A stretch of 32,264 bases of DNA, from positions 1 to 32,264 of the forward strand of contig CANKUB010000047.1 of the NCBI GenBank assembly GCA_947486575.1, given 5' to 3'. The DNA is from Betaproteobacteria bacterium (GTDB lineage Bacteria; Pseudomonadota; Gammaproteobacteria; Burkholderiales; SG8-41). Under the pieces are notes generated by a model. The model was not told the origin of the DNA and searched no databases. It worked only from the letters and a program-made list of their open reading frames with translations. The position numbers were made by a program, and so were the translations under genes. This document shows, piece after piece, positions 5,659-23,724 of the stretch (positions are counted from its first letter, which is position 1; each line of letters begins with the position of its first letter).

Positions 5659-5676
5659 AATAAAAACAATAGCTTA
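5659..5676 (-). repeat. copy of the AT-rich intergenic motif
   Basis: On the minus strand TAAGCTATTGTTTTTATT begins at the TAA stop codon of the flavocytochrome gene and fills most of the 28-nt gap to the next start codon. Confidence 0.35.
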
Positions 5677-6942
5677 CGATAGAGAATCCGCCCAGATGTT
5701 ACGCGCCCACCCCCACGCATACATCCCTTCAAGTTCACTCGGCTTGTCGGACAATCCACCCGCCCCTTTTACCGCAATCATGGTTTTTTCCGTTGCGCTG
5801 TACTGATGCACGGAGGTCACGTGAATCACGTTTTTTGCATCTACAAAGCTGTAGCAGGTGTTCATCATCATCGGCTGCTGGTTCACCGGCTGGCCCTTGA
5901 TCAGCGCGATCACTGCGGCTGCACAAATTTTCGCGTGCTGATTCGCCATGCTTGCCGATTTCGGCATCAACGCCGCAGACAGCGTAGCGTCACCCAACAC
6001 ATGTATGCCCGGCACTTTGATGGATTCGTTGGTGAGCCAATCCACGCCGCACCAGCGGTTGTTAGCGGTAATCAGCCCGGCATTGCGCGCGATATCTGCG
6101 GCGCGCTGTGGCGGCACTACGTTGAGCACATCGCCTTTGACATCGCCGAATTGCAGCTTGATGGTCATGCCCTTTACGTCGACATCGGCGATTTCACTGT
6201 TGGGCCGGTAATCGATCATGCCTTTGTACTGGCCGTTCCACACCGCACGAAACAACCCGGCCTTGGATACGATATCCGGGTTTGAATCGAGCACGATAAT
6301 TTTTGACTTCGGCTTCGCGCGCTTGAAATAATCGGCGATCTGGCAAACGCGCTCATACGGCCCCGGCGGGCAACGATACGGCGCAAGCGGAATATGGAAC
6401 ACGAAAACACCGCCGTCGTGCATCGATTCAAGTTGCTTCTTCAAAGCCAGCGTTTGCGGCCCAGCCTTCCATGCATGAAGCACCTGCGCTTGCGCGGCGG
6501 GATTGTTAAGCCCCAGAATTGTATCGTAAACCATGTCCACACCGGGCGACACTATCAACCGATCATAGTTGAGCGTGCTGCCACCTGCCAGCCGCACGGT
6601 CTTCGCGGCAGGATCTATCGCCACAGCATCGTCACGCACAACTTTGATACCGCGATTGGACAAGCCGCTGTAATCACGTGAAATGTCGCTGATGTTTGCG
6701 TTACCCGCCAACACCAGATTACTGATCGGGCATGAAATAAATCCCGACTCACGCTCGACCACCGTGACATCAATATCCGGCGACCACATTTTTATGTATT
6801 TTGCTGCTGTGCCACCACCGATGCCCGCCCCGATGACGACGACGCGTCCTGCGCTACCACCACCCGTTGTGGCACACCCCGCGAGCGCCGTTGCACCTGC
6901 CGCCGCTGTCCACTGCATGAATTCACGTCTGGAAAATGTCAT
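5674..6942 (-). CDS. fccB: flavocytochrome c sulfide dehydrogenase-type flavoprotein subunit
   Basis: A 422-aa exported flavoprotein that matches the FccB/SoxF pattern for periplasmic sulfide oxidation with electron transfer to a c-type cytochrome. The N terminus has a twin-arginine motif (SRREFMQW, residues 4-11) and then LAGC (20-23), which could also be a lipobox. A dinucleotide-binding VVIGAGIGGGTAAKYIK follows at 35-51. Cys71 in FISCPISN is at the position that holds FAD covalently in Chromatium FccB. Cys191 (YRCPPGPYER) and Cys298 (RWCGVDW) match its redox disulfide. All three key cysteines are thus present. It begins 9 nt after the cytochrome gene, with a GGAG site formed at that junction, so the two are co-transcribed. 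Confidence 0.9.
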   Translation of the reverse strand: MTFSRREFMQWTAAAGATALAGCATTGGGSAGRVVVIGAGIGGGTAAKYIKMWSPDIDVTVVERESGFISCPISNLVLAGNANISDISRDYSGLSNRGIKVVRDDAVAIDPAAKTVRLAGGSTLNYDRLIVSPGVDMVYDTILGLNNPAAQAQVLHAWKAGPQTLALKKQLESMHDGGVFVFHIPLAPYRCPPGPYERVCQIADYFKRAKPKSKIIVLDSNPDIVSKAGLFRAVWNGQYKGMIDYRPNSEIADVDVKGMTIKLQFGDVKGDVLNVVPPQRAADIARNAGLITANNRWCGVDWLTNESIKVPGIHVLGDATLSAALMPKSASMANQHAKICAAAVIALIKGQPVNQQPMMMNTCYSFVDAKNVIHVTSVHQYSATEKTMIAVKGAGGLSDKPSELEGMYAWGWARNIWADSLS

Positions 6943-6951
6943 GTCGCTCTC

Positions 6952-7296
6952 CTAATAACCAGCACGCGCAGGCGCAGGTTTGACGTTGGCAAAGTAACCG
7001 GCAATAAACTCAAACTGTGCGTCGGTGTAACCCTTGGCCTGCTGATGCATGATGGTTGCGGGCCGCTTGCCATCGCGAAAATCCTTGAGCAGTTGCAACA
7101 GCACAGCCTTCTCGCGACCAGCAATACTGGGAGGCACATCACCAACGCTGCGCCCCTCTGTGCCGTGACACGTGAAACACGTGGCTGCGAGTGCGCGCGC
7201 AGCGTTCGGGTCTTGTGCCTGCGCAGGCGCAGTGCCCGCCAATATCGCAACTGCAAACGCGGCTACAGAATATGCCGCACGCCATTGAGTGTTCAT
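6952..7296 (-). CDS. mono-haem cytochrome c, partner of the FccB-like flavoprotein
   Basis: A 114-aa precursor with a signal peptide (about residues 1-28, ending APAQAQ) and one haem-binding motif C40-F-T-C43-H44. Met83 in TIMHQQAKGYTD is the likely distal haem ligand. It resembles the SoxE/FccA-like class I cytochromes that take electrons from the flavoprotein. Chromatium FccA has two haems, so a single-haem partner is a difference, though single-haem forms are known in proteobacteria. The ATG at 7296 follows a GGGAG site. It is the first gene of the pair, and fccB starts 9 nt after its stop. Confidence 0.9.
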   Translation of the reverse strand: MNTQWRAAYSVAAFAVAILAGTAPAQAQDPNAARALAATCFTCHGTEGRSVGDVPPSIAGREKAVLLQLLKDFRDGKRPATIMHQQAKGYTDAQFEFIAGYFANVKPAPARAGY

Positions 7297-7373
7297 TCGA
7301 AACTCCCGGTCAAAAATGTAGCGGGCTAGTATAGCAATGCCTGCGTGGATGCACAGTAAAAAATCTACCCGTG

Positions 7374-7412
7374 AAAAGCAAAAACCCCGAACGTTCCGGG
7401 GTTTTTGCTTTT
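7374..7412 (-). terminator. rho-independent terminator after clpA
   Basis: A perfect 16-bp inverted repeat, 7374-7389 and 7397-7412, with core CCCCG/CGGGG, flanking A5/T5 and A4/T4 runs, and a 7-nt loop. Read from clpA it ends in TTTTTGCTTTT. The following cytochrome gene on the same strand starts 78 nt beyond. Confidence 0.88.
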
Positions 7413-7424
7413 GCCGCAATGCCA

Positions 7425-9692
7425 CTACACGACCGTGGCCTCGGGCTTTTTCTCCTCGGCGAAAATCAGCTTAACCTTCTCAGCTGCGTCGAGATCAACC
7501 GTCACTTTGCCGCCACTGACCAATTTACCGAATAACAATTCATCTGCCAGTGCGCTGCGTATCGTATCTTGTATCAGACGCGCCATCGGCCGCGCGCCCA
7601 TAGCCGGATCAAACCCTTTTTTCGCCAGATAATCCTTCAGCGCCTGCGTGAACGAGATATCAACTTTTTTCTCGTGCAATTGGTCTTCAAGCTGCATGAG
7701 GAATTTATCCACCACGCGCAGTATGATCTCGCGATCAAGCGCTGCAAATGAAATGGTTGCATCCAGCCGATTGCGGAACTCCGGCGTGAACAGGCGCTTG
7801 ATCTCGCCCATTTCGTCGCCCACCTGTTTGCTCGGCGCAAAACCCATGCTGGTTTTCGACAACTCCGCCGCGCCCGCATTGGTGGTCATGATAATCACCA
7901 CGTTGCGGAAATCGGCTTTGCGTCCGTTGTTATCGGTAAGCGTGCCGTGATCCATCACCTGCAGAAGAATGTTAAAAATATCAGGATGCGCCTTTTCGAT
8001 TTCATCCAGCAGCAGCACTGAGTACGGCTGTTTGGTGATTTGTTCGGTCAGCAGCCCGCCTTGATCAAAGCCAACGTAACCCGGCGGCGCACCAATCAAG
8101 CGCGATACTGCATGCCGCTCCATGTATTCCGACATATCAAAGCGAATCAGTTCCACACCCATGACATAGGCGAGCTGCTTTGCTACTTCCGTCTTGCCCA
8201 CACCGGTTGGGCCGGAAAACAGAAAGCTGCCGATGGGCTTGATCGGATTGCCCAATCCGCTACGCGCCATTTTGATCGCGGTAGTGAGCGCATCAATGGC
8301 TTTATCCTGACCGAACACGGTGGCTTTCAAATCACGCCCCAGTGTTTTCAACGAGTTACGATCATCGTTCGACACGGTTTGCGGCGGTATCCGTGTGATC
8401 TTCGCCACCACTTCTTCAATCTCGTGTTTACTGATGACTTTTTTCTGCTTTGATTTCGGCAGAATGCGTTGCGCAGCACCTGCTTCGTCGATCACGTCAA
8501 TCGCTTTGTCGGGCAAATGCCGATCATTGATAAAGCGCGCGGCCAGTTCAGCCGCCGCCGTCAGTGCAGCGGCCATGTATTTAACGCCGTGATGCTCCTC
8601 GAAGCGCGACTTGAGTCCTTTGAGAATCTGCACGGTTTCTTCCACCGATGGCTCCAGCACATCGATCTTTTGAAAGCGCCGCGACAACGCGTGATCTTTT
8701 TCGAACACCCCACGAAACTCGGTGTAGGTGGTGGCGCCGATGCACTTTAACGACCCATTCGATAACGCAGGCTTCAATAAATTGGAGGCATCCAGCGTGC
8801 CGCCCGATGCCGCACCCGCACCGATCAGCGTGTGAATTTCATCAATAAAAAGAATGGCATGCGGATTGTCTTGCAGTTGTTTCAGCACTGCTTTCAAGCG
8901 TTGCTCGAAATCTCCGCGATACTTGGTGCCCGCCAGCAACGCACCCATGTCGAGCGCGTAGACCGTGCTTTTTAGAAGAATATCCGGTACGGTTTCTTCA
9001 ATAATACGTCGCGCCAAACCCTCGGCTATCGCCGTTTTGCCCACGCCGGCCTCACCCACCAACAGCGGGTTGTTTTTACGGCGGCGGCACAGAATCTGTA
9101 TCGCACGCTCCAACTCTTTGTCGCGGCCGATTAAGGGATCAATCTTCCCTTGCTGCGCCAGCACATTGAGATTTTGCGTGTAGGTTTCCAGAGCGCCGCC
9201 TGCCGCCGGGGCTTCTTGCTCGCTCTCGGTCTCGTTCTCGGATTTTGCGGGCGTTGCTTGTGGTGTTTTGCTGATGCCGTGCGAAATAAAATTCACCACA
9301 TCCAGGCGTGTGATGCCTTTTTGATTCAGGAAGAAAACCGCGTGCGAATCCTTTTCCCCAAAGATCGCCACCAGCACATTGGCGCCGGTCACTTCCTTTT
9401 TTCCCGACGATTGCACATGTAATATGGCGCGCTGAATGACGCGTTGAAAACCCAGCGTGGGCTGCGTATCGACTTCTTCACCCGCGAGTATCGGCGTGTG
9501 CTCGGTGACAAATTCTGCCAGGAGTTTGCGCAGATCATCGACATCCGTGGCGCACGCCTTCAACACTTCGGATGCTGACGGATTATCCACCAGCGCCAGC
9601 AGCAAATGCTCCACGGTGATGAATTCGTGGCGCTTTTGACGGGCCTCCATGAAGGCCATGTGCAAGCTGACTTCCAGTTCCTGAGCGATCAT
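7425..9692 (-). CDS. clpA: ATP-dependent Clp protease ATP-binding subunit ClpA
   Basis: A 755-aa hexameric AAA+ unfoldase that feeds substrates to ClpP in the cytosol. It has an N-terminal helical repeat domain (1-140, starting MIAQELEVSL) and an acidic linker (150-165). The D1 domain has Walker A GEAGVGKT (213-220), Walker B LFIDEIH (281-287) and pore loop KYRG (257-260). The D2 domain has Walker A GPTGVGKT (494-501) and pore loop GYVGFDQGG (538-546). The length and motifs are normal for ClpA and lack the middle domain of ClpB. It lies 40 nt after clpS on the same strand. ClpS binds its N domain and directs N-degron substrates. clpP is not in the window. Confidence 0.98.
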   Translation of the reverse strand: MIAQELEVSLHMAFMEARQKRHEFITVEHLLLALVDNPSASEVLKACATDVDDLRKLLAEFVTEHTPILAGEEVDTQPTLGFQRVIQRAILHVQSSGKKEVTGANVLVAIFGEKDSHAVFFLNQKGITRLDVVNFISHGISKTPQATPAKSENETESEQEAPAAGGALETYTQNLNVLAQQGKIDPLIGRDKELERAIQILCRRRKNNPLLVGEAGVGKTAIAEGLARRIIEETVPDILLKSTVYALDMGALLAGTKYRGDFEQRLKAVLKQLQDNPHAILFIDEIHTLIGAGAASGGTLDASNLLKPALSNGSLKCIGATTYTEFRGVFEKDHALSRRFQKIDVLEPSVEETVQILKGLKSRFEEHHGVKYMAAALTAAAELAARFINDRHLPDKAIDVIDEAGAAQRILPKSKQKKVISKHEIEEVVAKITRIPPQTVSNDDRNSLKTLGRDLKATVFGQDKAIDALTTAIKMARSGLGNPIKPIGSFLFSGPTGVGKTEVAKQLAYVMGVELIRFDMSEYMERHAVSRLIGAPPGYVGFDQGGLLTEQITKQPYSVLLLDEIEKAHPDIFNILLQVMDHGTLTDNNGRKADFRNVVIIMTTNAGAAELSKTSMGFAPSKQVGDEMGEIKRLFTPEFRNRLDATISFAALDREIILRVVDKFLMQLEDQLHEKKVDISFTQALKDYLAKKGFDPAMGARPMARLIQDTIRSALADELLFGKLVSGGKVTVDLDAAEKVKLIFAEEKKPEATVV

Positions 9693-14561: not shown

Positions 14562-15335
14562 ATGAACGCACCCGTCGAAAAATTCATCCTCTTTTTGCAG
14601 CCTGGATGAAGTTCCTGCCTCAGAGCGAAAGAGTTTCTTTCGAAAAAGAAGATTGACCACGAAGTTGTCGATATCCTGAACGATGCGGGCGGTCGCGAAA
14701 GACTGCTGGCACTGGGCCTGCGCAATGTCCCGGTTGTATCCAAGGGTAAAAAATATGTATTTGGCCAAAAGCTCGAAGATGTAGCTGAATTTGTCGGACT
14801 CGAAGGCACCGGGCACACACCGCTGCCGCCGGATCAACTGGTGAAGAAGTGGATCATCGCGATGCGCGCCGCGCAACGCTATGTGCGGCAACTGCCGGAC
14901 GACATCCTGCTGCAGGATGTGATTCCCAACCGCCCACGGCCGATTCGCATCATGAGCCATCACATTTTCCGCATCTGCGACGCGTTTCTCAACAGCACCA
15001 TCAACGGTAAAGACTACGCTGTCGGTGATGCCAATCAACTGCCCGAGGAAGGCACCTGCATGAAAGGCAGTGAGATCGCCGATTTTGGCGAGAGCGTCAT
15101 CAAGCGCCTTGAGGCATGGTGGGGCGGCTTGCAAGACAAAACCCTCTCTGTTGAAATTCCCACCTACTACGGCCCGCAGCCGCTGCACGTGGTATTCGAG
15201 CGCTCAACCTGGCACTCGGCACAGCACGCGCGACAGTTGATACACGTGCTGGAACGCAATGGCATCAAGCCCAATCAGCCGCTGACAGCGGATGACCTGG
15301 CCGGTTTGCCGTTGCCGGAGCGTCTGTTCGAGTAA
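14562..15335 (+). CDS. selenoprotein: glutaredoxin-like domain (U-S-S-C) fused to a DinB-fold domain
   Basis: The frame from ATG 14562 (GGAG site at 14552) is open to 15335 except for one TGA at 14607-14609. Read as selenocysteine this gives 257 aa. Residues 1-80 look like a glutaredoxin: strand KFILFLQPG, then U16-S-S-C19 at the CxxC position, a helix, and the cis-Pro segment NVPVVSKG. Residues about 90-250 are a DinB-fold domain with candidate metal ligands His133/134 (MSHHIF) and His218/222 (TWHSAQHARQL). A hairpin 16 nt after the UGA fits a bacterial SECIS. DinB-fold proteins include thiol-dependent S-transferases, so a selenol-assisted thiol reaction is plausible but unproven. Ordinary translation would stop after 15 residues, and automatic annotation would probably start at GTG 14841 and lose the redox domain. 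Confidence 0.88.
14626..14642 (+). promoter_or_regulatory. putative SECIS hairpin of the glutaredoxin-DinB selenoprotein
   Basis: CGAAAGA (14626-14632), loop GTT (14633-14635) and TCTTTCG (14636-14642) form a perfect 7-bp minihelix of 17 nt, starting 17 nt after the UGA. The loop begins with G and contains GU, as bacterial SelB-binding loops do, and the distance from UGA to loop (23 nt) is within the usual range. Confidence 0.75.
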
Positions 15336-15350
15336 TGGTTTTGGTTCACT

Positions 15351-15388
15351 AAAAAGCCGCGCGAATGATCCACAGCGCGGCTTTTTTT
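15351..15388. terminator. bidirectional terminator between two convergent selenoprotein genes
   Basis: AAAAAGCCGCGC (15351-15362) and GCGCGGCTTTTT (15375-15386) form a perfect stem with a 12-nt loop. T runs exist in both readings, T7 on plus and T5 on minus. It lies 15 nt after the glutaredoxin-DinB gene and 62 nt beyond the stop of the minus-strand selenoprotein gene. Confidence 0.9.
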
Positions 15389-15406
15389 ATTGTGACAGTT
15401 ACACCA

Positions 15407-15424
15407 TAAGTATTTGTTTTTAAA
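15407..15424 (+). repeat. copy of the AT-rich intergenic motif
   Basis: TAAGTATTTGTTTTTAAA lies in the short space between the convergent selenoprotein genes. With the following TGCTTAT it can also form a 10-bp AT hairpin (ATAAGTATTT with AAATGCTTAT, one G-T pair). Confidence 0.35.
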
Positions 15425-15449
15425 TGCTTATTTAAAATTCCTTGCTATC

Positions 15450-17207
15450 TCAAAGACGCCTCGTCTGCGCCAGCAACTCCTGCCAGTGCTTCGGCAACAC
15501 CACCTTGCGGCTGGTCGGTATGCCCTGCACATGGTTACACACATAGCCACGTGATTGATTGCGCCCGGCATCACCCGCGACAACGATACTCATCCATTCC
15601 GGCCGCTGGAACACCGGCACCAGGCGGTCCGGGTCATCGGACTCGTGATACAGCTTCGGCAGCAAGCCTTCCTTCACGGCGTTGGCAATGCGAAACCCGG
15701 TCAAACCGGCGCCATAGGCATAGCGTTCTGCGGCGGACGCCTTGATCTTCACATTATCGTAAAAGTATTTGCGGATGTCGTCCTTACTCCAGCCATCCTG
15801 CGCAAACACCTTGGCAATCGACGGCCCCAGAATGATCAGCGGATGCCAGTTGGCGTAACACATGCCAATCGCCGTCCAGTAGCCGCAGGCACGTTCGCCG
15901 ATCACATCCGCAAGTAGAGCCGCATGCTCTTCAGCGCGCTCGCTTTGTGAATACGCCGGCGCACTGATCGCCACCACGCTTTGCACCGTGACCACGTTGT
16001 CACCCGCTTTGAAGCCGCGATCCACGCTATATGGTTGCCATCCCAATGCGCCAACGGCATCTTCGTCTTCCGCCAGCACCACCAGAAAACTCTGGCCGAT
16101 GCTGCCTTTGTCGGCGCCCTCTGGCCCATGCGTGAAACCAGCAACGTTGCGTATGAACATGCGCAGGAAACGTCCAACGCTGGTATTGGCCTGTCGCCCC
16201 ACCCGCATCACACCCTGTCCGGCATTGAAACCCAGTTCTTTGATGATCGGCCCGCTCAGTGTGATCAGCGACTCCCAGCCCGGCGTCGAACCCGCATCTT
16301 CAATTTTGTATTCCGGCGTGCAAATCACTTCCACGATCGCCAGCAGTATCGGCATGTATTCCGGGCGGCAGCCGGCCATCACACCATTCACGGCAACATT
16401 CCAAACCGTCGCCTCGCGATTGGCGGGCGGGCACACACCGATCACCTCGTTCGGATCACGATCGGTAAAACGCAAAAACTTGTCTACACGATCCAGCGTC
16501 GGCGGCACCACCGGCATGCCATCCGACCAGTTTTGGTCGTGGAAGTAATCGTTGATCTGATCCAACGTACCGCTGAACACGACATCGCGAGGCTTTGGCA
16601 ACGCCGCCTCAATAGCTGGCGCAGCCAGCTTCAAGGGCTTGGACAACCCATCGATAATGCGTGGCAACAGAACATTGATCACCTGCCCGCGCAACTCTGC
16701 CTTGCTTTGCGTCATCGGCACACCGGGAAACTCTGCGATGGCCATATCAGGCAAGCCAAGGCCCTTGGCCACCACGGCAGCCTGTTTGAGAAACCCCGAG
16801 GAAATAATTGATACTGACGGAACGCCGCAGCGCTCCACCACAGCACTTGCCCGCAACACGGCGGGCGTGCAGGCGCCTCAGGCGCCTATGGCTGAAATAA
16901 CCGCATCAACGTTATGCTTTTTCAGCAATTCCGGCACTTTTGCCACCAACTCTCGCTGGTGGGTACCATGCAGATTGCCGAATGTCTCATAGGTCACGAA
17001 CCGGATGCCGGGATAGCGTTTTGTCAGAGCCTCCCGCAGCATGGGGAACCACTCTTCTCCGCGAAACAGGTAATCCCAAGTTTCGCCAATGACTTTGTTG
17101 TTCAGATCGGCAACGCGCTCAACCGGGGCGCGCGTCGCATACGCAGGTCTACCCAGCGGCCATACGACGTCGTAGGCAGGCTCAATTAATGAAGGATGGG
17201 CACTCAT
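15450..17207 (-). CDS. UGSC-family selenoprotein with a U-G-A-C motif
   Basis: The frame from ATG 17207 (GGAG site just upstream) runs to 15450 with one in-frame TGA at 16878-16880; read as Sec this gives 585 aa. Residues 1-109 end in a hydrophobic strand DAVISAIGA, then U110-G-A-C113-TPAVLR starts the next helix. A second large domain begins near SGTLDQINDYF and contains NGVMAGCRPEYMP, GSTPGWESL and GQGVMRVGRQANTSVGRF. It is a full-length paralogue of the gene at 21985-23724, with the same Sec position and SECIS. The family is known as UGSC (seleno)proteins; the biochemical function is not established to my knowledge. It is transcribed away from selA across a 156-nt shared promoter region. 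Confidence 0.9.
16850..16865 (-). promoter_or_regulatory. putative SECIS minihelix of the U-G-A-C selenoprotein
   Basis: On the minus strand CCCGC (16861-16865), loop CGTGTT (16855-16860) and GCGGG (16850-16854) begin 12 nt after the UGA. The loop has G in its second position and lies 17 nt from the UGA. The 16 bases are identical to those at 22324-22339. Confidence 0.75.
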
Positions 17208-17363
17208 TACATCTCCAAGGCTACTGAAATTGTCGAATTCGAGAATAGCACGCACGCTGGTGTTTGCGCTAAAATTGACCTCCTTCCAGAACCAATCGTC
17301 GCCACCTTTCATGTTCGCGCAGCCTCGCAGGGACTCCATTTTGTGTCCGGTACTCTCACCATC

Positions 17364-18782
17364 ATGGTGAACCCCGAGCCAGCCGCGCGTCGCGCGCTAC
17401 CTTCGGTTGACCGGCTACTGAGCAGCACGGCTTTCAGCGCGTTCATTTCACGATACGGCCGCGCACTCACCACCGAAACCATCCGGGAACTGTTGCAGGT
17501 GCAGCGAGAGAAGCTCGCACAAAACGCCAGTGCATTCGACTTTGATGAGGGGCATTTTGTTGCTGCCTGTGATGCGGCACTGACAAAATACACCCAACCC
17601 TCACTGCGTCCCGTGTTCAATCTGACGGGCACCGTGCTGCACACCAATCTGGGACGTGCGCTGATGCCGCAATCCGTGGCTGATGCGGTAATGACGGCCA
17701 TGACGCGCCCGGTGAATCTAGAATTCGATCTCGGCGGAGGCGCGCGCGGCGAACGTGATACGCACGTGGAAAAATGGATCACCAAACTCGCCGGTGGCGA
17801 AGGCGCGGTTGTCGTCAATAATAATGCAGCCGCTGTGTACCTGGTGCTGAACACGCTGGGTGCGCAACGTACAAAACGGGAAGTCATTGTCTCTCGCGGC
17901 GAACTCATTGAAATCGGCGGCGCGTTCCGTATTCCTGACATCATGAAACGCGCGGGCGTCAAACTGGTTGAGGTCGGCACTACCAACCGCACGCACCTCA
18001 AGGATTTTGCCGAGGCGATTACGCCGCACACCGCGGCAATCATGAAAGTGCACACCAGTAATTATGTCGTGCAGGGCTTCACAGCGTCCGCCCCTGAGGC
18101 CGAACTAGCAGCACTTGCACACGAGCACGGCATTCCCTACATCGTTGATTTGGGCAGCGGCATGCTGGTCAATCTCGAAGACTACGGCTTGCCTCACGAA
18201 CCGACGCCACGCGAGGCGCTGGCCAATGGCGCAGACCTGGTGACCTTCAGTGGTGACAAGCTGCTGGGTGGCCCCCAGGCGGGTCTGCTGGTTGGCAAAA
18301 AAGATCTGATTGCGCGCATCCGCAAGAATCCGATGAAACGCGCATTGCGCGTGGACAAAATGACGCTTGCCGCGCTCGATGCGTTGCTGCGCCTTTACAC
18401 CAATCCGGATAAGTTGCGCGAAGAAGTCACCACCATTCGCCTACTCACCCGCACACGTGCCGACATTCGGGTACAGGCCGAACGCGTATTACCCCACGTT
18501 CAGAATGCAGTCGCTGGCAAAGGTGAAGCGAGAATCGTAGAGACGGGCAGTCAAATCGGCAGCGGCTCGCTGCCGGTGGATTCACTACCCAGTGCAGGAA
18601 TTGCCATCAGCCCCATCGGCAAAAGCAAAAGCTCCTTCGCGGACAAATTGTCGCTGGCGTTTCGCGCGCTGCCGGTGCCAGTGATCGGCCACATCAAGGA
18701 TGGTGCTTTCGTGCTTGATATTCGCTGTCTTGAACATGAAGCGGAATTCATCACGCAGCTCACCCAGCTACAGTTTAAATAA
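17364..18782 (+). CDS. selA: L-seryl-tRNA(Sec) selenium transferase SelA
   Basis: A 472-aa PLP enzyme that converts Ser-tRNA(Sec) to Sec-tRNA(Sec) with selenophosphate. It begins like other SelA proteins (ALPSVDRLLSSTAF). It then has NLTGTVLHTNLGRAL (86-100), GGGARGERDTH (124-134), and the PLP lysine Lys299 in TFSGDKLLGGPQ, equivalent to E. coli Lys295. The length matches E. coli SelA (463 aa). The ATG at 17364 is chosen because family similarity starts there; the frame is open further upstream, but that would overlap the promoter of the divergent selenoprotein. The ribosome-binding site is weak. selB follows 21 nt later. Confidence 0.97.
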   Translation: MVNPEPAARRALPSVDRLLSSTAFSAFISRYGRALTTETIRELLQVQREKLAQNASAFDFDEGHFVAACDAALTKYTQPSLRPVFNLTGTVLHTNLGRALMPQSVADAVMTAMTRPVNLEFDLGGGARGERDTHVEKWITKLAGGEGAVVVNNNAAAVYLVLNTLGAQRTKREVIVSRGELIEIGGAFRIPDIMKRAGVKLVEVGTTNRTHLKDFAEAITPHTAAIMKVHTSNYVVQGFTASAPEAELAALAHEHGIPYIVDLGSGMLVNLEDYGLPHEPTPREALANGADLVTFSGDKLLGGPQAGLLVGKKDLIARIRKNPMKRALRVDKMTLAALDALLRLYTNPDKLREEVTTIRLLTRTRADIRVQAERVLPHVQNAVAGKGEARIVETGSQIGSGSLPVDSLPSAGIAISPIGKSKSSFADKLSLAFRALPVPVIGHIKDGAFVLDIRCLEHEAEFITQLTQLQFK

Positions 18783-18786
18783 ACTG

Positions 18787-18804
18787 TTTAAAAACAGATA
18801 CTTA
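18787..18804 (-). repeat. copy of the AT-rich intergenic motif, between selA and selB
   Basis: On the minus strand TAAGTATCTGTTTTTAAA. It occupies the 21-nt selA-selB gap and touches the first base of the selB start codon, which leaves no room for a good ribosome-binding site. On plus the surrounding CTGTTTAAAAACAG is an inverted repeat. Confidence 0.35.
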
Positions 18805-20837
18805 TGATAGTAGCCACCGCAGGACACATTGATCACGGCAAGACGCTGTTAGTGAAAACCCTCACTGGCGTTGACACCGATCGGCTACCGGAAGAAAAAG
18901 CCCGCGGCATATCGATTGACCTGGGATTTGCCTATCTACCGTTGCCGAATGGCGAGTTGATCGGCTTTGTGGACGTGCCGGGTCATGAACGTTTTGTGCG
19001 CAATATGCTTGCGGGCGTTTGTGGCATTGATTATGCGCTGCTGGTAGTCGCCGCTGATGACGGTGTGATGCCACAGACGCTGGAACACCTGAATATCTTG
19101 AATCTGCTGCATATCCAGCGCGGTGCGGTGGTGGTCACTAAAATCGACCGGGTGGACGAGGAACGCGTCAAGCAAGTCGGCGAAAGCGTTTCGGCGTTAC
19201 TTGCCACGACACAGCTTGCCGATGCCAAGGTGATGCCGGTATCCGCCATCAGCGGCGTCGGCATCAGCGAGTTGCGCGAGATGTTAAAGCGCGAAGCAGC
19301 ATCAGCCCCTTCTCGCGCGAACGCCGACCAGCACTTTCGCTATGCGGCCGACCGGGCATTTACGGTTGCCGGCAGCGGCACCGTTGTCACCGGCACGGTA
19401 TTCAACGGCAAAGTCGCGCCGGGTGACAAGCTGGTGATTTCACCTGCTGGCAACGAAGTGCGGGTTCGCGGCATCCAGATTCAAGGCAAGGCTGCTCAGC
19501 AAGCCAGCGCGGGCCAACGCTGCGCGTTGAACCTGACCGGCACGGATCTGGAAGCGGTTAGCCGTGGCGACTGGGTGCTGGCACCCGCTATTCATCAACC
19601 CACGCAACGCATCGCCGGACGCGTCAGTGTTCTCGCCAGCGAAACGCAATCCCTCAAGCACTGGACGCCGGTGCATTTGCATCTGGCCACCGCTGATGTC
19701 ACTGCGCGTATTGCCATCCGTCGTGGCGAAAACATTGCACCCGGCGCATCAGCCATCGTGCAATTGCAGCTCGACAAGCCGATAGGCGCGCTGCACGGCG
19801 ACCGCTTTATTCTGCGCGATCAATCGGCCACTCGCACCCTCGGCGGAGGCGTGGTGCTGGATCCCTTTGTAACGACCGGCAGCACGAGAGGCCGCAGCAA
19901 GGAAGCACGTGAAGGAGAACTCGCCGCGTTTGAACAACCCACGCCGCAGAACACGCTGCAGGCCTTGATTCAGCTCGGACGCCCGATTGATTTACAGCGT
20001 TTTGAAACGTTGTTCAATATGCCGCCCACGCATGCTGCGGTGCTGTACGATAAAGCGACGCTGGTGATGCTGGGTAAAGACACGCGCGTGGGCGTGCCAC
20101 GCGCACGCCATCAGCAAATCGTCGACGCGGTTGTGCCGCAGCTCGAAGCATTCCACAAAGCCCATCCACAGGCGACGGGCGAAGAAACGGAAACGCTACG
20201 CAAGAAAATTGCACCGGAATTGTCCGCTGACGCCTTCGGCGCCGTTCTGCGTGCGCTCACCGATGCCCGCAAAATTGAAACCAGCGGCTCCATCGCGCGC
20301 CTGCCCGCACACAGCACGACAGCCAACACCGCTGACGAGAAAATGTGGCAAATCGTCAAACCCGCGCTCGAGACAGCAGGATTCAACTCGCCGCAAATCA
20401 AAGACCTGGCGCTGCAACTCAAATTGAAGGAACCCATCGTCAAGGATTTTCTCTACCGCAAAACCAAAAGTGGTGAAATTTATCGCGTGACGCCGGATCG
20501 CTTTTATACCAAAGACACGTTGGCCAAACTGGCGGCCACGGCCCAAGCTACCGCACAGGCACAGCCCACCGGCATTTTCACCGCTGCGCAATATCGCGAC
20601 TGGACAGGCGTAGGCCGCGGCCTGGCGATCGAAATTCTGGAGTTCATGGATACGCTGGGCGTAACACAGCGTATCGGCGACACGCGCAAAATGCGCAAGG
20701 ACTTTGTGCCCATCCTGGGTGCTGCGGAAATTCCCGCGAAGCCGTTACTGGCCGCACCGCGCCCCGCGCAACTGCCGCCCTCATCCAGCAAACCGGCCAA
20801 TCAGCAACGCCGACCAAATAATTTTTATCGTAGATAA
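18804..20837 (+). CDS. selB: selenocysteine-specific elongation factor SelB
   Basis: A 677-aa GTPase that carries Sec-tRNA(Sec) to the ribosome and binds the SECIS hairpin with its C terminus. GTPase motifs are GHIDHGKT (7-14), DVPGHE (57-62) and TKID (112-115), with TAVDTDRLPEEKARGISID-like switch I in the form TGVDTDRLPEEKARGISIDL (21-40). Then come EF-Tu-like beta domains and the winged-helix region (about 390-620) ending in YRDWTGVGRGLAIEILEFMD. There is a Pro-rich basic tail. E. coli SelB is slightly shorter (614 aa). No Shine-Dalgarno is evident before ATG 18804, suggesting translation coupled to selA. Confidence 0.98.
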   Translation: MIVATAGHIDHGKTLLVKTLTGVDTDRLPEEKARGISIDLGFAYLPLPNGELIGFVDVPGHERFVRNMLAGVCGIDYALLVVAADDGVMPQTLEHLNILNLLHIQRGAVVVTKIDRVDEERVKQVGESVSALLATTQLADAKVMPVSAISGVGISELREMLKREAASAPSRANADQHFRYAADRAFTVAGSGTVVTGTVFNGKVAPGDKLVISPAGNEVRVRGIQIQGKAAQQASAGQRCALNLTGTDLEAVSRGDWVLAPAIHQPTQRIAGRVSVLASETQSLKHWTPVHLHLATADVTARIAIRRGENIAPGASAIVQLQLDKPIGALHGDRFILRDQSATRTLGGGVVLDPFVTTGSTRGRSKEAREGELAAFEQPTPQNTLQALIQLGRPIDLQRFETLFNMPPTHAAVLYDKATLVMLGKDTRVGVPRARHQQIVDAVVPQLEAFHKAHPQATGEETETLRKKIAPELSADAFGAVLRALTDARKIETSGSIARLPAHSTTANTADEKMWQIVKPALETAGFNSPQIKDLALQLKLKEPIVKDFLYRKTKSGEIYRVTPDRFYTKDTLAKLAATAQATAQAQPTGIFTAAQYRDWTGVGRGLAIEILEFMDTLGVTQRIGDTRKMRKDFVPILGAAEIPAKPLLAAPRPAQLPPSSSKPANQQRRPNNFYRR

Positions 20838-20859
20838 TTGACGAAAAGAAGGAACCACC

Positions 20860-21771
20860 ATGGCAACAAACTATGACGTAATTGTGATTGGCGAAGGGGT
20901 CGCTGGTTTGACTGCAGCGGGTGAGCTGGCTGGCGCAGGACTTAAGGTCGCAACGATAGAAGCACAGCTCTTTGGCGGGCTGGTTATCAATATCAATGAA
21001 CTTGATCCGGTGCCATCCGGCAGCGAAGCCGCCGGCGGCGCGGAATACGCCTCATCACTGGTGGAAGCCGCAGCCAACGCGGGCGTCACCAGCATCAATG
21101 AACCTGTCAACACCATCGAAGCCTCCGGTGACGTTAAGAAAGTGAACACCGATGGCGGCAGCTACACGACCAAGGCAATCGTCGTAGCCTCTGGCGCACG
21201 GCTGAAAAGGCTCGGCGTGCCCGGCGAAATGGAATACGAAGGCAAAGGCGTATCGCAATGCGCCGACTGCGATGGCCCGATGTATCAGAACGAGGGCGTT
21301 GTCGTCGCGGGCGGCGGCGATTCTGCCTTGCAGGAAGCCATCGTGCTGTCGCACTACTGCAAGGAAGTACGGCTGGTGCATCGTGGCGCGGCACTCACCG
21401 GTGCTGCCCACTTGCAGCAGGCCGTGAATGCAGAATCCAAAATCATCAAGATATTCAATGCTGAAGTCACTGCCGTCGGTGGTGGACAAATGGTGGAAAG
21501 GGTTTCGATCAAACACGCCGATGGCCGTAGCGAAGATATCGCCTGCGCCGGCCTGTTTGCTTATATCGGTCTCGAACCCAACGCCGGATTTTTGCCCGAC
21601 ACGGTCAAGCGTGACGAACAGGGCCGCGTCGTTGCCAACGACAAACTGGAGACGGCGCTGCCAGGCGTGTGGGCAGCGGGCGCCGTTCGCAGTGGCTGCG
21701 GTGGGCTGCTGGACGACGCGATTGCCGATGGCAAAAAGGCGGCGGCAGAAATACGCGCACGACTTGGCTGA
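20860..21771 (+). CDS. thioredoxin-reductase-like FAD/NAD(P)-dependent oxidoreductase
   Basis: A 303-aa flavoprotein with the TrxR fold: an N-terminal FAD motif VIGEGVAG (9-16), the dithiol motif C134-A-D-C137 in VSQCADCDGP (E. coli TrxR has CATC), and the NAD(P)-binding VVAGGGDSALQEA (148-160). The second FAD motif is WAAGAVR (271-277), where the usual Asp of AAGDVR is Ala, so FAD binding may differ. It has a good AAGAAGGA site and lies 22 nt after selB, just before selC. The position inside the sel cluster suggests it may reduce one of the selenoproteins here or support selenium metabolism (inference). It could instead be a ferredoxin- or thioredoxin-independent paralogue. Confidence 0.88.
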   Translation: MATNYDVIVIGEGVAGLTAAGELAGAGLKVATIEAQLFGGLVININELDPVPSGSEAAGGAEYASSLVEAAANAGVTSINEPVNTIEASGDVKKVNTDGGSYTTKAIVVASGARLKRLGVPGEMEYEGKGVSQCADCDGPMYQNEGVVVAGGGDSALQEAIVLSHYCKEVRLVHRGAALTGAAHLQQAVNAESKIIKIFNAEVTAVGGGQMVERVSIKHADGRSEDIACAGLFAYIGLEPNAGFLPDTVKRDEQGRVVANDKLETALPGVWAAGAVRSGCGGLLDDAIADGKKAAAEIRARLG

Positions 21772-21856
21772 AACTGCTTACGAAGTTCGTGCAGAGCGCC
21801 GATCTAGGAATTACAATCAGGTACTGGTTTTTGCATTCGTAGTTCATCTGCATTAC

Positions 21857-21951
21857 GGAAGGGAATCGCTCCCGGTGGGGCGGCCGGACTTCAAACCCGG
21901 TGAGGGCTGTTAACAGTTCTGTGTGGGTTCGACTCCCACTCTCTTCCGCCA
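21857..21951 (+). tRNA. selC: tRNA-Sec (selC), anticodon TCA
   Basis: A 95-nt tRNA including encoded CCA, the same length as E. coli selC. It has an 8-bp acceptor stem (21857-21864 with 21940-21947, one G-T pair), discriminator G, and a 6-bp D stem CGCTCC/GGGGCG with a 4-nt loop. The anticodon loop CTTCAAA holds TCA at 21891-21893. There is a long variable arm, and the T arm GTGGG-TTCGACT-CCCAC is perfect. The 8+5 acceptor/T helix and 6-bp D stem are diagnostic of bacterial tRNA-Sec. The innermost anticodon-stem pair is A21888 opposite C21896, a mismatch. Confidence 0.98.
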
Positions 21952-21984
21952 ACAAATTGCATTCTGCCCGGCCTGGAGAATCTC

Positions 21985-23724
21985 GTGTCCGATACGTCAC
22001 ACAACGAACCTCGCTACGATGTCCTGTGGCCCATCCCGCGCCGTGCCGTCGAAGACCGCGCCTGCGCACCACGCCTGCCTGATCTCAATGGCAAAGTCAT
22101 AGGTGAATTGTGGGATGTAATATTTCGCGGCGAGATGATTTACCCGCAGGTGCGCGAACACGTGCGCGCAAAATTTCCGGGCGCGAAATTCGTCGAGTAT
22201 TCTGAATTCGGCAATTTCTATGGGCCCAAGGGCGAGGCCATCGCCGCGACGCTGGCCGATAAACTCAAGGCACACAAAGTCGATGCCGTCATAGTCGGCA
22301 TAGGCGCCTGAGGCAGTTGCACACCCGCCGTGTTGCGGGCCGCAGCGCAGATCGAAAAGATGGGCATCCCCACGGTGTCTCTGATTGGCAACGCCTTTAT
22401 GCGACAGGCTGACGTGGTTTCGCGCGGGCTGGGATTGCCACTTGCCTACGCCGAATATCCCGGCGCGCCGATGGTCGATGGCGTCGAAGAACTCAGCACC
22501 AAGGTCAGAAACACGCTCGCGCCCGGCGTCATCAAAGGGCTGACGCAAGGGCGTGATACGCCGTCCACCGCCAGTGTTGAAACCGAACCTGCAGCGGGCT
22601 CGATAGTGATGAGCGGCACGCTGGACGAAATACAGGAGTATTTTTACCGCAAGCTGTGGACAGACGGCATGCCGATTATTCCGCCCACGCGAGAGCGGGT
22701 GGATGCTTTTCTCAAATTCACCGACCGCGATCCCGGCGAAGTGCTGCGGGTGGTACCGCAGGAGGGCCGCGAGGTCTCGATACTCAGCATCGCCATCACG
22801 GGTTGTATGTCGGGTTGCCGTCCGGAATACATGCCGCTGCTGATAGCCGTGATCGAGGCGATGTGCGATCCGGAGTTTCACATCGAGCACTGCGGCTCCA
22901 CGCCGGGATGGGAACCGCTGGTGATAGTCAGCGGCCCCATCATCAAGCAACTCGATTTCAACTACGGGCAAGGTGTGATGCGCGTGGGCCGTCAGGCAAA
23001 CACGACTGTCGGCCGCTTTGTACGCATGTTCCTGCGCAACGTCTGCGGCTACCGAATTCCGCCCGGTGCGGGCGACAAAGGCAGCATCAGCTTTACCTTT
23101 AATGTCGCGCTCGCCGAGGACGAAGACACCGCGCGCGACATCGGCTGGCCGACCTACGGCATGGATCAGGGCTTTAAGCCCGAAGACAGTGTCGTCACCG
23201 TAAGAAGCGTGGTCGCCATCACGCCGCCGACCTATAGCGCGGGCGACGAAGCCATCGACCACGTGCAGCAGTTTGCCGACGTAATGGGCGCGACATTCAC
23301 TTACTGGTCGCACACCGGTATGAAGCGCGGCTTCTGGCACCCGCTGATCGTCGTGGGGCCCAGTATCGCTCGTGTCATCGCCCGTGAATGGAGCAAAGAA
23401 AAAGTTCGTAACTATTTGTTTAATAAGGTAAAAGTTACAGCCGGTCAAATTACGCATTACGCGCAGATGACCAGCACGCCCACGTTCAGCCTGCCGCGGC
23501 TGGTGGCCGAAGGCACACTACCCAAGTCGTATCATGAATCGGACGACCCTGACCGATTGGTGCACGTGTTCATCGATGAGGCAATGACCGGCATTCTGGT
23601 TGCTGGTGATCCGGGGCGCAATCAATCACGCGGGTACATGGGCAATCACGATCAGGGAGCACCGACCAGCCGCAAAGTGATGCTGCCAAAGCACTGGCAG
23701 ACCCTGCTCACGTCACGCGGTTGA
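21985..23724 (+). CDS. UGSC-family selenoprotein with a U-G-S-C motif
   Basis: The frame from GTG 21985 (GGAG at 21975-21978) is open to 23724 apart from one TGA at 22309-22311. Read as Sec it encodes 579 aa. The strand DAVIVGIGA is followed by U109-G-S-C112-TPAVLR. The N-terminal region (RYDVLWPIP, KVIGELWDVIFRGE) and the large C-terminal domain (TDGMPIIPPTRERVD, GCMSGCRPEYMP, GSTPGWEPL, GQGVMRVGRQANTTVGRF) are shared with the paralogue at 15450-17207. U and C are three residues apart, as in redox-active pairs. Family name UGSC (seleno)protein; the reaction is unknown. It starts 33 nt after selC. Conventional annotation would give a 108-aa fragment and a separate gene from GTG 22330. Confidence 0.92.
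22324..22339 (+). promoter_or_regulatory. putative SECIS minihelix of the U-G-S-C selenoprotein
   Basis: CCCGC (22324-22328), loop CGTGTT (22329-22334) and GCGGG (22335-22339) begin 12 nt after the UGA. G is the second loop base and the loop is 17 nt from the UGA. Sequence and spacing are identical to the element of the minus-strand paralogue. Confidence 0.78.

Follow-up and report, generated by a model that had tools for sequence, protein, structure and literature searches.

The DNA stretch analysed here (the window; 32,264 nucleotides), which is contig C47 of a betaproteobacterial draft genome (5.35 Mb, 98% complete, 0.7% contamination), carries a cluster of genes for the insertion of selenocysteine (Sec, U) at UGA codons together with three client genes that contain an in-frame UGA. 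With moderate confidence, the locus is best explained as a Sec cassette, composed of a Sec-glutaredoxin-DinB gene, selA, selB, a thioredoxin-reductase-like (TrxR-like) gene and the tRNA-Sec gene selC, accompanied by two of the 17 UGSC-family clients of the genome that would act by a reductase mechanism. The genes themselves, the replacement of Sec by cysteine (Cys), the hairpin among the UGSC paralogues, the gene order, the pairing of UGSC with a partner domain and the expansion of the family can be read from the sequence with near certainty. Sec decoding, the UGSC family and the UGSC fusion are already known. In the bacterial pathway, SelB and tRNA-Sec insert Sec at UGA with the aid of a downstream hairpin, and SelD supplies selenophosphate. 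The cluster comprises the following features:

14562..15335, + strand: Sec-glutaredoxin (USSC) fused to a DinB-like domain; UGA at 14607-14609, apical hairpin at about 14626-14642; Pfam Glutaredoxin 4e-10
15450..17207, - strand: UGSC-family selenoprotein (UGAC) with UGSC and partner domain; UGA at 16878-16880, apical hairpin at about 16849-16866; PF24696 3.6e-25
17196..18782, + strand: selA (TIGR00474); as the model match starts at residue 66 of the open frame, translation probably begins further downstream, near 17364
18804..20837, + strand: selB (TIGR00475)
20860..21771, + strand: thioredoxin-reductase-like flavoprotein with a CADC motif; TIGR01292 230 bits, below the cut-off of 343
21857..21951, + strand: tRNA-Sec (selC); ARAGORN, RF01852
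21985..23724, + strand: UGSC-family selenoprotein (UGSC) with UGSC and a partner domain from about 22600; UGA at 22309-22311, apical hairpin at about 22324-22339; PF24696 2.7e-25

The first-pass annotation had placed selA, selB, selC and three UGA-containing genes in one cluster, and this arrangement was recovered. The selA and selB products exceeded the curated cut-offs of TIGR00474 (579 versus 268 bits) and TIGR00475 (456 versus 242 bits), and the tRNA-Sec was called by ARAGORN and scored 77.7 bits with the Rfam model RF01852 (cut-off 47). As had likewise been described, a Cys residue follows three residues after U in all three clients (USSC, UGAC and UGSC), and the ribosome-binding sequence GGAG precedes each of the three starts. 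A selD gene, expected apart from the cluster, was found on contig C248 (TIGR00476, 426 bits versus a cut-off of 125) and itself contains an in-frame UGA. Since selD is located on another contig, the cluster is not the self-contained module that had been suggested; altogether 19 further probable Sec genes, selD included, reside on other contigs of the draft genome, which thus holds at least 22 probable Sec genes (17 UGSC, two glutaredoxin-DinB, SelD, one PrdB-like and one OsmC-like). The locus resembles other bacterial selA-selB-selC clusters in the adjacency of these three genes and the separate position of selD, but differs from them, in the relatives examined, by the divergent TrxR-like gene kept between selB and selC and by the Sec-glutaredoxin-DinB gene upstream of selA.

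All three clients are open only if the UGA is read through, and the predicted fold of each contains an apical hairpin after the UGA. These hairpins had been taken to be of the selenocysteine insertion sequence (SECIS) type, and the three cases together to make chance or sequencing error unlikely. The hairpins stand in the predicted folds, but none of the three beats shuffled sequences on its own: folded as lone 45-mers and compared with dinucleotide shuffles, they yielded p values of 0.46 (UGA 14607), 0.12 (UGA 16880) and 0.14 (UGA 22309), and a p value of 0.05 or less was obtained for eight of the 17 sequences folded as 45-mers. This result counts against a reading of the UGA codons as Sec, as do the UGSC copy on contig C153, the fold of which shows no usual hairpin, and a homology-free scan of the window, which returned 13 UGA-joined frames with at least 200 codons past the UGA. 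Because the lone window hairpins are not significant and such frames occur 13 times, the case for Sec rests on homology; the window alone would not settle the matter, whereas homology does. The UGxC motif is UGA-encoded in 17/17 UGSC genes of the genome, and Cys occupies the UGSC site in five plasmid-borne relatives from cultured organisms. At the glutaredoxin-DinB loci the motif was seen in 82 of 85 cases, with UGA in 74 and Cys in eight, although these loci are not independent cases because many represent the same genomes in two collections. The relatives accordingly carry Sec or Cys at the UGA site, as had been anticipated.

Additional evidence was provided by a stem common to 13 UGSC sequences, which is paired in 97.1% of 104 cells in one register and in at most 51% when the register is slid. 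Of 500 shuffles, one reached the covariation score of this stem and 20 its count of pairs changed on both sides. The test covered UGSC hairpins, not the glutaredoxin hairpin, and its 13 sequences were chosen for the one register, 11 of them from the 17 UGSC genes of the genome and two from plasmids; the remaining UGSC copies, with a shifted hairpin or none, were left out, among them both window copies, the hairpins of which fall into another register.

Both window UGSC proteins matched PF24696 with 89.5 and 89.9 bits (gathering score 25 bits), whereas the cut-off of 125 of the equivalog model NF041046 was not reached (50.5 and 51.7 bits). The genome as a whole yielded 18 PF24696 matches, 17 of them with a single in-frame UGA at UGxC, the eighteenth being a flavoprotein below the cut-off. 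In the alignment of the 16 full copies (the seventeenth is cut by a contig end) U, the Gly at position +1 and the Cys at position +3 are invariant. Pairwise, these copies are at most 62% identical (median 28%) and hence cannot be regarded as strain duplicates; the median of 28% fits different substrates.

The partner domain, for which no Pfam family was detected at E values up to 0.1, is fused to UGSC or encoded adjacently at 16 of the 17 UGSC genes (seven fused, nine neighbouring). Within the nine split pairs, the partner gene is located 3' of the UGSC gene in five, its start codon overlapping the UGSC stop, and comes first in four. Of the 19 partner domain matches in the genome, 17 belong to the 16 UGSC genes (two of them on contig C24), one is located on contig C40 and one, truncated by the contig end, on contig C140; 16 of 17 partner sequences retain the Cys of a MAGC motif. 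A tandem pair of partner genes (locus L024, 347-2422) was observed beside one UGSC gene that is itself cut by the contig end. The selenoproteome of the Global Ocean Sampling (GOS) water survey (PMC2398784) includes a UGSC/Unknown_1 fusion, described as UGSC with a conserved extra domain. It shares with the proteins analysed here the UGxC motif and a fused conserved domain, which may or may not be the partner, and the passages of that paper on the fusion make no mention of the partner as a coupled neighbouring gene or of 17 to 53 copies per genome. Neighbouring genes for tricarboxylate-type binding proteins (TctC) were considered as a functional clue and dropped, since at least 150 matches among 693 candidates in the genome indicated that such genes are common everywhere.

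The UGSC family is expanded in the bacterial family of the source organism. PF24696 was detected in 74/74 genomes searched from nine genera, with one to at least 40 matches each, and in 0/14 control genomes. At the level of the order, 38 of 300 genomes gave a match, 35 of them over the cut-off and mostly from a few families, and one copy without UGA was present among the matches listed. A large set was analysed in the relative G050 (98% complete, 2% contamination), with 58 UGSC places, of which 54 contain UGA and 51 of these no further stop. The 52 regions fetched, covering 56 of the 58 places, yielded 54 domains with exactly one UGA, 53 of which read UGxC; some copies are cut or contain an extra stop. 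A stem of at least six pairs at the right distance was found in 47 of the 54 (19% in mononucleotide shuffles), and none of the 52 copies long enough to compare shares more than 74% identity with its nearest paralogue. As G050 also encodes SelD with a UGA and one glutaredoxin-DinB protein with a UGA, its probable Sec genes number 53 to 55 and belong to three families, the range being set by the inclusion or exclusion of copies that contain an extra stop. A second genome of the same genus, G061, gave 35 UGSC matches, 30 with UGA.

According to the record names, the relatives are mostly metagenome-assembled genomes (MAGs) of Betaproteobacteria or Burkholderiales, and isolate names indicate soil, sediment, lakes and groundwater as sources; a small number carry the label Deltaproteobacteria, Binatia, Rhodospirillaceae or Kiloniellales. 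Eight MAG records labelled Bordetella parapertussis (L061, L062, L063, L080, L081, L092, L099 and L109) group with environmental Betaproteobacteria, and this label looks like a misassignment. The window genome looks aerobic, as it contains two haem-copper oxidase genes. Elsewhere in the window, positions 5674-7425 encode the flavoprotein of a flavocytochrome c sulfide dehydrogenase (FCSD domains), preceded by a gene for a cytochrome c, which suggests sulfide oxidation.

The glutaredoxin-DinB client was found in 67 of the 74 genomes of the bacterial family, some of the matches being fragments. DinB_2 was detected in 15/15 aligned relatives at E values up to 0.5 (best 1.8e-8), the window protein itself giving an E value of 0.0014 and 19.5 bits, below the gathering score of 24.8, and the motif TWHSAQH is invariant across the 15 aligned sequences. 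Cys-containing relatives are 39-45% identical to the window protein. With Sec-glutaredoxins and the UXX-star family (NF041212) the protein shares a glutaredoxin domain with U-x-x-C, but it differs from them by the fusion to a DinB-like domain with TWHSAQH, and its glutaredoxin reached 27.8 bits with NF041212 (cut-off 66).

The order of the cassette is conserved as well. In 29 of 53 fetched loci selA lies downstream of the glutaredoxin gene within the stretch available; a number of the remaining loci end at a contig edge or represent more distant relatives. In all 23 loci in which both were found, selB is followed on its own strand by the TrxR-like gene, and tRNA-Sec comes next in 19. A UGSC gene on the opposite strand follows the glutaredoxin gene in eight loci and precedes selA in six of them, the other two stretches ending first, and locus L109 matches the window in gene order from one UGSC gene to the other. 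Relatives thus keep the core arrangement of Sec-glutaredoxin, selA, selB, TrxR-like gene and tRNA-Sec, which suggests vertical descent as judged from gene order. The TrxR-like protein contains the CADC motif and a pyridine nucleotide-disulfide domain.

With regard to the proposal that the module is transferable, 72,556 plasmid records were searched twice, and relatives of UGSC or its partner were detected in 24 records each time, nine of which were examined closely. Plasmid pTAV4 of Paracoccus versutus carries, in this order, a trxB-like gene and selA, a Sec-UGSC gene with its partner, selB, a TrxR-like gene and a tRNA-Sec at a place without annotation; its TrxR-like protein is 43% identical to that of the window. 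The same gene set is present on P. ferrooxidans pFER4 (L126), interrupted by two ISPme2 copies, with the part of selB that encodes its final 40 residues outside one copy, together with the TrxR-like gene and the tRNA-Sec, and the rest inside the pair. No selD over the cut-off was found on pTAV4 or pFER4. The conjugative IncP plasmid p2-T1 of Acidovorax sp. T1 carries a lone Sec-UGSC fusion, the annotated gene of which (L117, 7986-8276 and on) stops at the UGA with the rest unlisted, probably an annotation error. The Cys forms at the UGSC site occur on plasmids of Natrinema, Halorientalis, two Variovorax and Roseovarius, and a Sporomusa plasmid relative showed no motif by pattern search. In Roseovarius a trxB gene adjoins the Cys-UGSC gene, in Variovorax SRS16 one is located at a distance of two genes from the pair, and V. 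boronicumulans encodes, two genes upstream, a flavoprotein that is 30% identical to that of the window. Genes for selB are not rare on plasmids (117 records). In the window no mobile element was noticed, although no search with a dedicated tool was made. The Paracoccus clusters and the Acidovorax IncP fusion make transfer plausible for this type of module; for the window copy transfer was not demonstrated, and the kept gene order suggests vertical descent instead.

A weak resemblance links the UGSC proteins to the Sec-containing subunits of glycine and proline reductases. Models of GrdB, GrdF, GrdH and PrdB matched UGSC members at E values up to 0.1, TIGR01917 in nine of 16 members (best 3.2e-5) and TIGR04483 in five of 16 (best 2.6e-5), and in the first UGSC member the GrdB/PrdB match falls in the stretch that holds Sec. 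When UGSC was aligned with a PF07355-type gene that the genome also carries, UGA fell on UGA (E value 8e-7 for this single pair). The likeness to GrdB, GrdF, GrdH and PrdB accordingly consists of a local similarity round Sec, with UGA on UGA in this one PF07355-type relative and Cys at position +3, whereas the differences from GrdB and PrdB lie in scores under the family cut-offs, in a partner without a GrdE-type match at E values up to 1 and in a source genome that looks aerobic. One UGSC member matched PF09338 at 0.021. The PF07355-type (GrdB/PrdB-like) gene (contig C244, locus L029, 733-1962, motif UPNC) stands beside an OsmC-like gene (64-714); both contain an in-frame UGA and probably encode selenoproteins.

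The predicted structure of the window UGSC protein has a mean predicted local distance difference test (pLDDT) score of 77 and a predicted template modelling (pTM) score of 0.84, and shows an alternation of strands and helices with U placed after a strand. On the basis of this model, the UGSC domain is read as Rossmann-like. For the UGSC fold the 2008 GOS paper (PMC2398784) gives a thioredoxin-like (Trx-like) structure as likely; the model shows otherwise, yet none of the matches in the PDB is significant. For the partner model (pLDDT 82), class I fumarases took the first three places among the PDB matches, with E values of 0.008-0.035, probabilities of 0.30-0.38 and TM scores of 0.20-0.26, which were too weak to be used. 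PDB sequence searches returned nothing convincing, whether the query was the window UGSC protein or a profile of UGSC, the fusion or the partner; the sole match of the fusion profile was an engineered protein (0.0012, 41 residues).

On this basis a mechanism can be proposed. SelB and tRNA-Sec would insert Sec at each UGA, helped by the hairpin just downstream, with selenophosphate supplied by the SelD protein encoded elsewhere. The Sec nucleophile would then attack a small organic substrate that the partner domain helps to hold, and a selenenylsulfide would be closed either by the Cys at position +3 or by the MAGC Cys conserved in the partner. The TrxR-like flavoprotein would re-reduce this bond with NAD(P)H, perhaps via the Sec-glutaredoxin-DinB protein, and the many paralogues would serve many substrates. 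Glycine reductase and proline reductase share the logic of such a Sec mechanism. The UGSC proteins may work like these enzymes and are not claimed as one of them: because the profile comparison between UGSC and the single PF07355-type protein yielded a probability of only 10% (E value 0.003) and no PDB match reached an E value of 1e-3, UGSC was not assigned to GrdB/PrdB.

In favour of the reductase mechanism count the single UGA at the motif in 17/17 UGSC genes, the invariant U, Gly and Cys, the fused or adjacent partner at 16 of these genes and its retained Cys, the weak GrdB/PrdB matches, the TrxR-like gene behind selB in relatives and on Paracoccus plasmids, the trxB genes near UGSC in Roseovarius and Variovorax SRS16, and the low identity among the copies. 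Several observations speak against it. Besides the profile comparison, the first UGSC member scored far below the cut-offs of TIGR01917 (19.0 versus 602 bits), TIGR01918 (19.4 versus 65 bits) and TIGR04483 (18.2 versus 300 bits), and structure searches of the PDB with the models of the window protein and the partner returned nothing at an E value of 1e-3 or better. The partner gene on contig C40 (L113, 7121-8173) has no UGSC gene nearby, and the UGSC gene on contig C171 (L019, 1639-2181) has no partner in the stretch examined. The reductase chain is deduced from gene neighbourhood, and no second TrxR-like gene was detected (tblastn, 1e-5) in 0.26 Mb around the other UGSC and Sec genes of the genome. 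That each UGSC/partner pair is a reductase for its own substrate is put forward tentatively, at somewhat less than even probability.

Among the alternatives, the one that survives best regards the UGSC proteins as general thiol-disulfide or peroxide-defence selenoproteins and their copies as redox paralogues without distinct substrates. The UxxC motif, as in thioredoxins and glutaredoxins, and the Sec-glutaredoxin in the same cluster fit this explanation. It is nevertheless rather unlikely, as the predicted strand-helix alternation with U after a strand may be read as Rossmann-like, no thioredoxin or glutaredoxin chain appeared among the 50 PDB matches listed (none of the 50 being significant), and a conserved partner together with 17 to 53 divergent copies is hard to explain as general defence. 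Considerably less probable is a role in binding or processing metals, metalloids or organometals, which has been suggested for the SAO selenoproteins. A 2026 review names metals or other substrates as possible ligands of the Sec in SaoB, SaoC and UXX-star proteins, but no metal-resistance genes stood out in the UGSC neighbourhoods, which were named by eye from translated starts and not by family search, and many of the neighbours so named look catabolic for organic acids. The assumption that the UGA codons are true stops, in split or decayed genes or in frames open by chance, would agree with the insignificance of the single window hairpins and with the 13 UGA-joined frames, but is highly improbable in view of the same-column UGA in 17/17 copies, the Cys in relatives, the hairpin kept in 13 sequences and the adjoining decoding genes.

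Among the open-access papers searched, titles and abstract beginnings showed none on the UGSC expansion, the glutaredoxin-DinB selenoprotein or the Paracoccus cluster, and the GrdB/PrdB link and the kept reductase gene were likewise not found; Haft and Tolstoy 2025 (selenoprotein neighbourhoods) and Deng et al. (groundwater MAGs, the source of the total of 63 selenoproteins cited in the 2026 review) could overlap with the present findings. UGSC was among the commonest selenoproteins of the GOS water survey, with 255 sequences in the counts given there (PMC2398784), and is listed in the 2026 review among the families with largely uncharacterized functions. Gene pairing, a candidate reductase and the weak GrdB/PrdB resemblance now make the chemistry of UGSC testable, also in cultured Paracoccus.

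Where the 2026 review treats selenoproteome size, it gives 57 and 63 as the largest bacterial sets and describes the richest organisms as predominantly anaerobic. The 53 to 55 probable Sec genes of G050 come near these totals, and the UGSC expansion bears on the view that the richest organisms are mostly anaerobic, as the window genome has two haem-copper oxidase genes. It is conceivable, at clearly less than even probability, that the UGSC/partner pairs represent an aerobic equivalent of the glycine and proline reductases, namely many-substrate Sec reductases for organic acids that are served by one chain of NAD(P)H, TrxR-like flavoprotein and Sec-glutaredoxin-DinB protein, with client and cassette also borne on plasmids. 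If this is true, one betaproteobacterial family would have built most of its selenoproteome from UGSC, with 53 UGxC copies in one genome.

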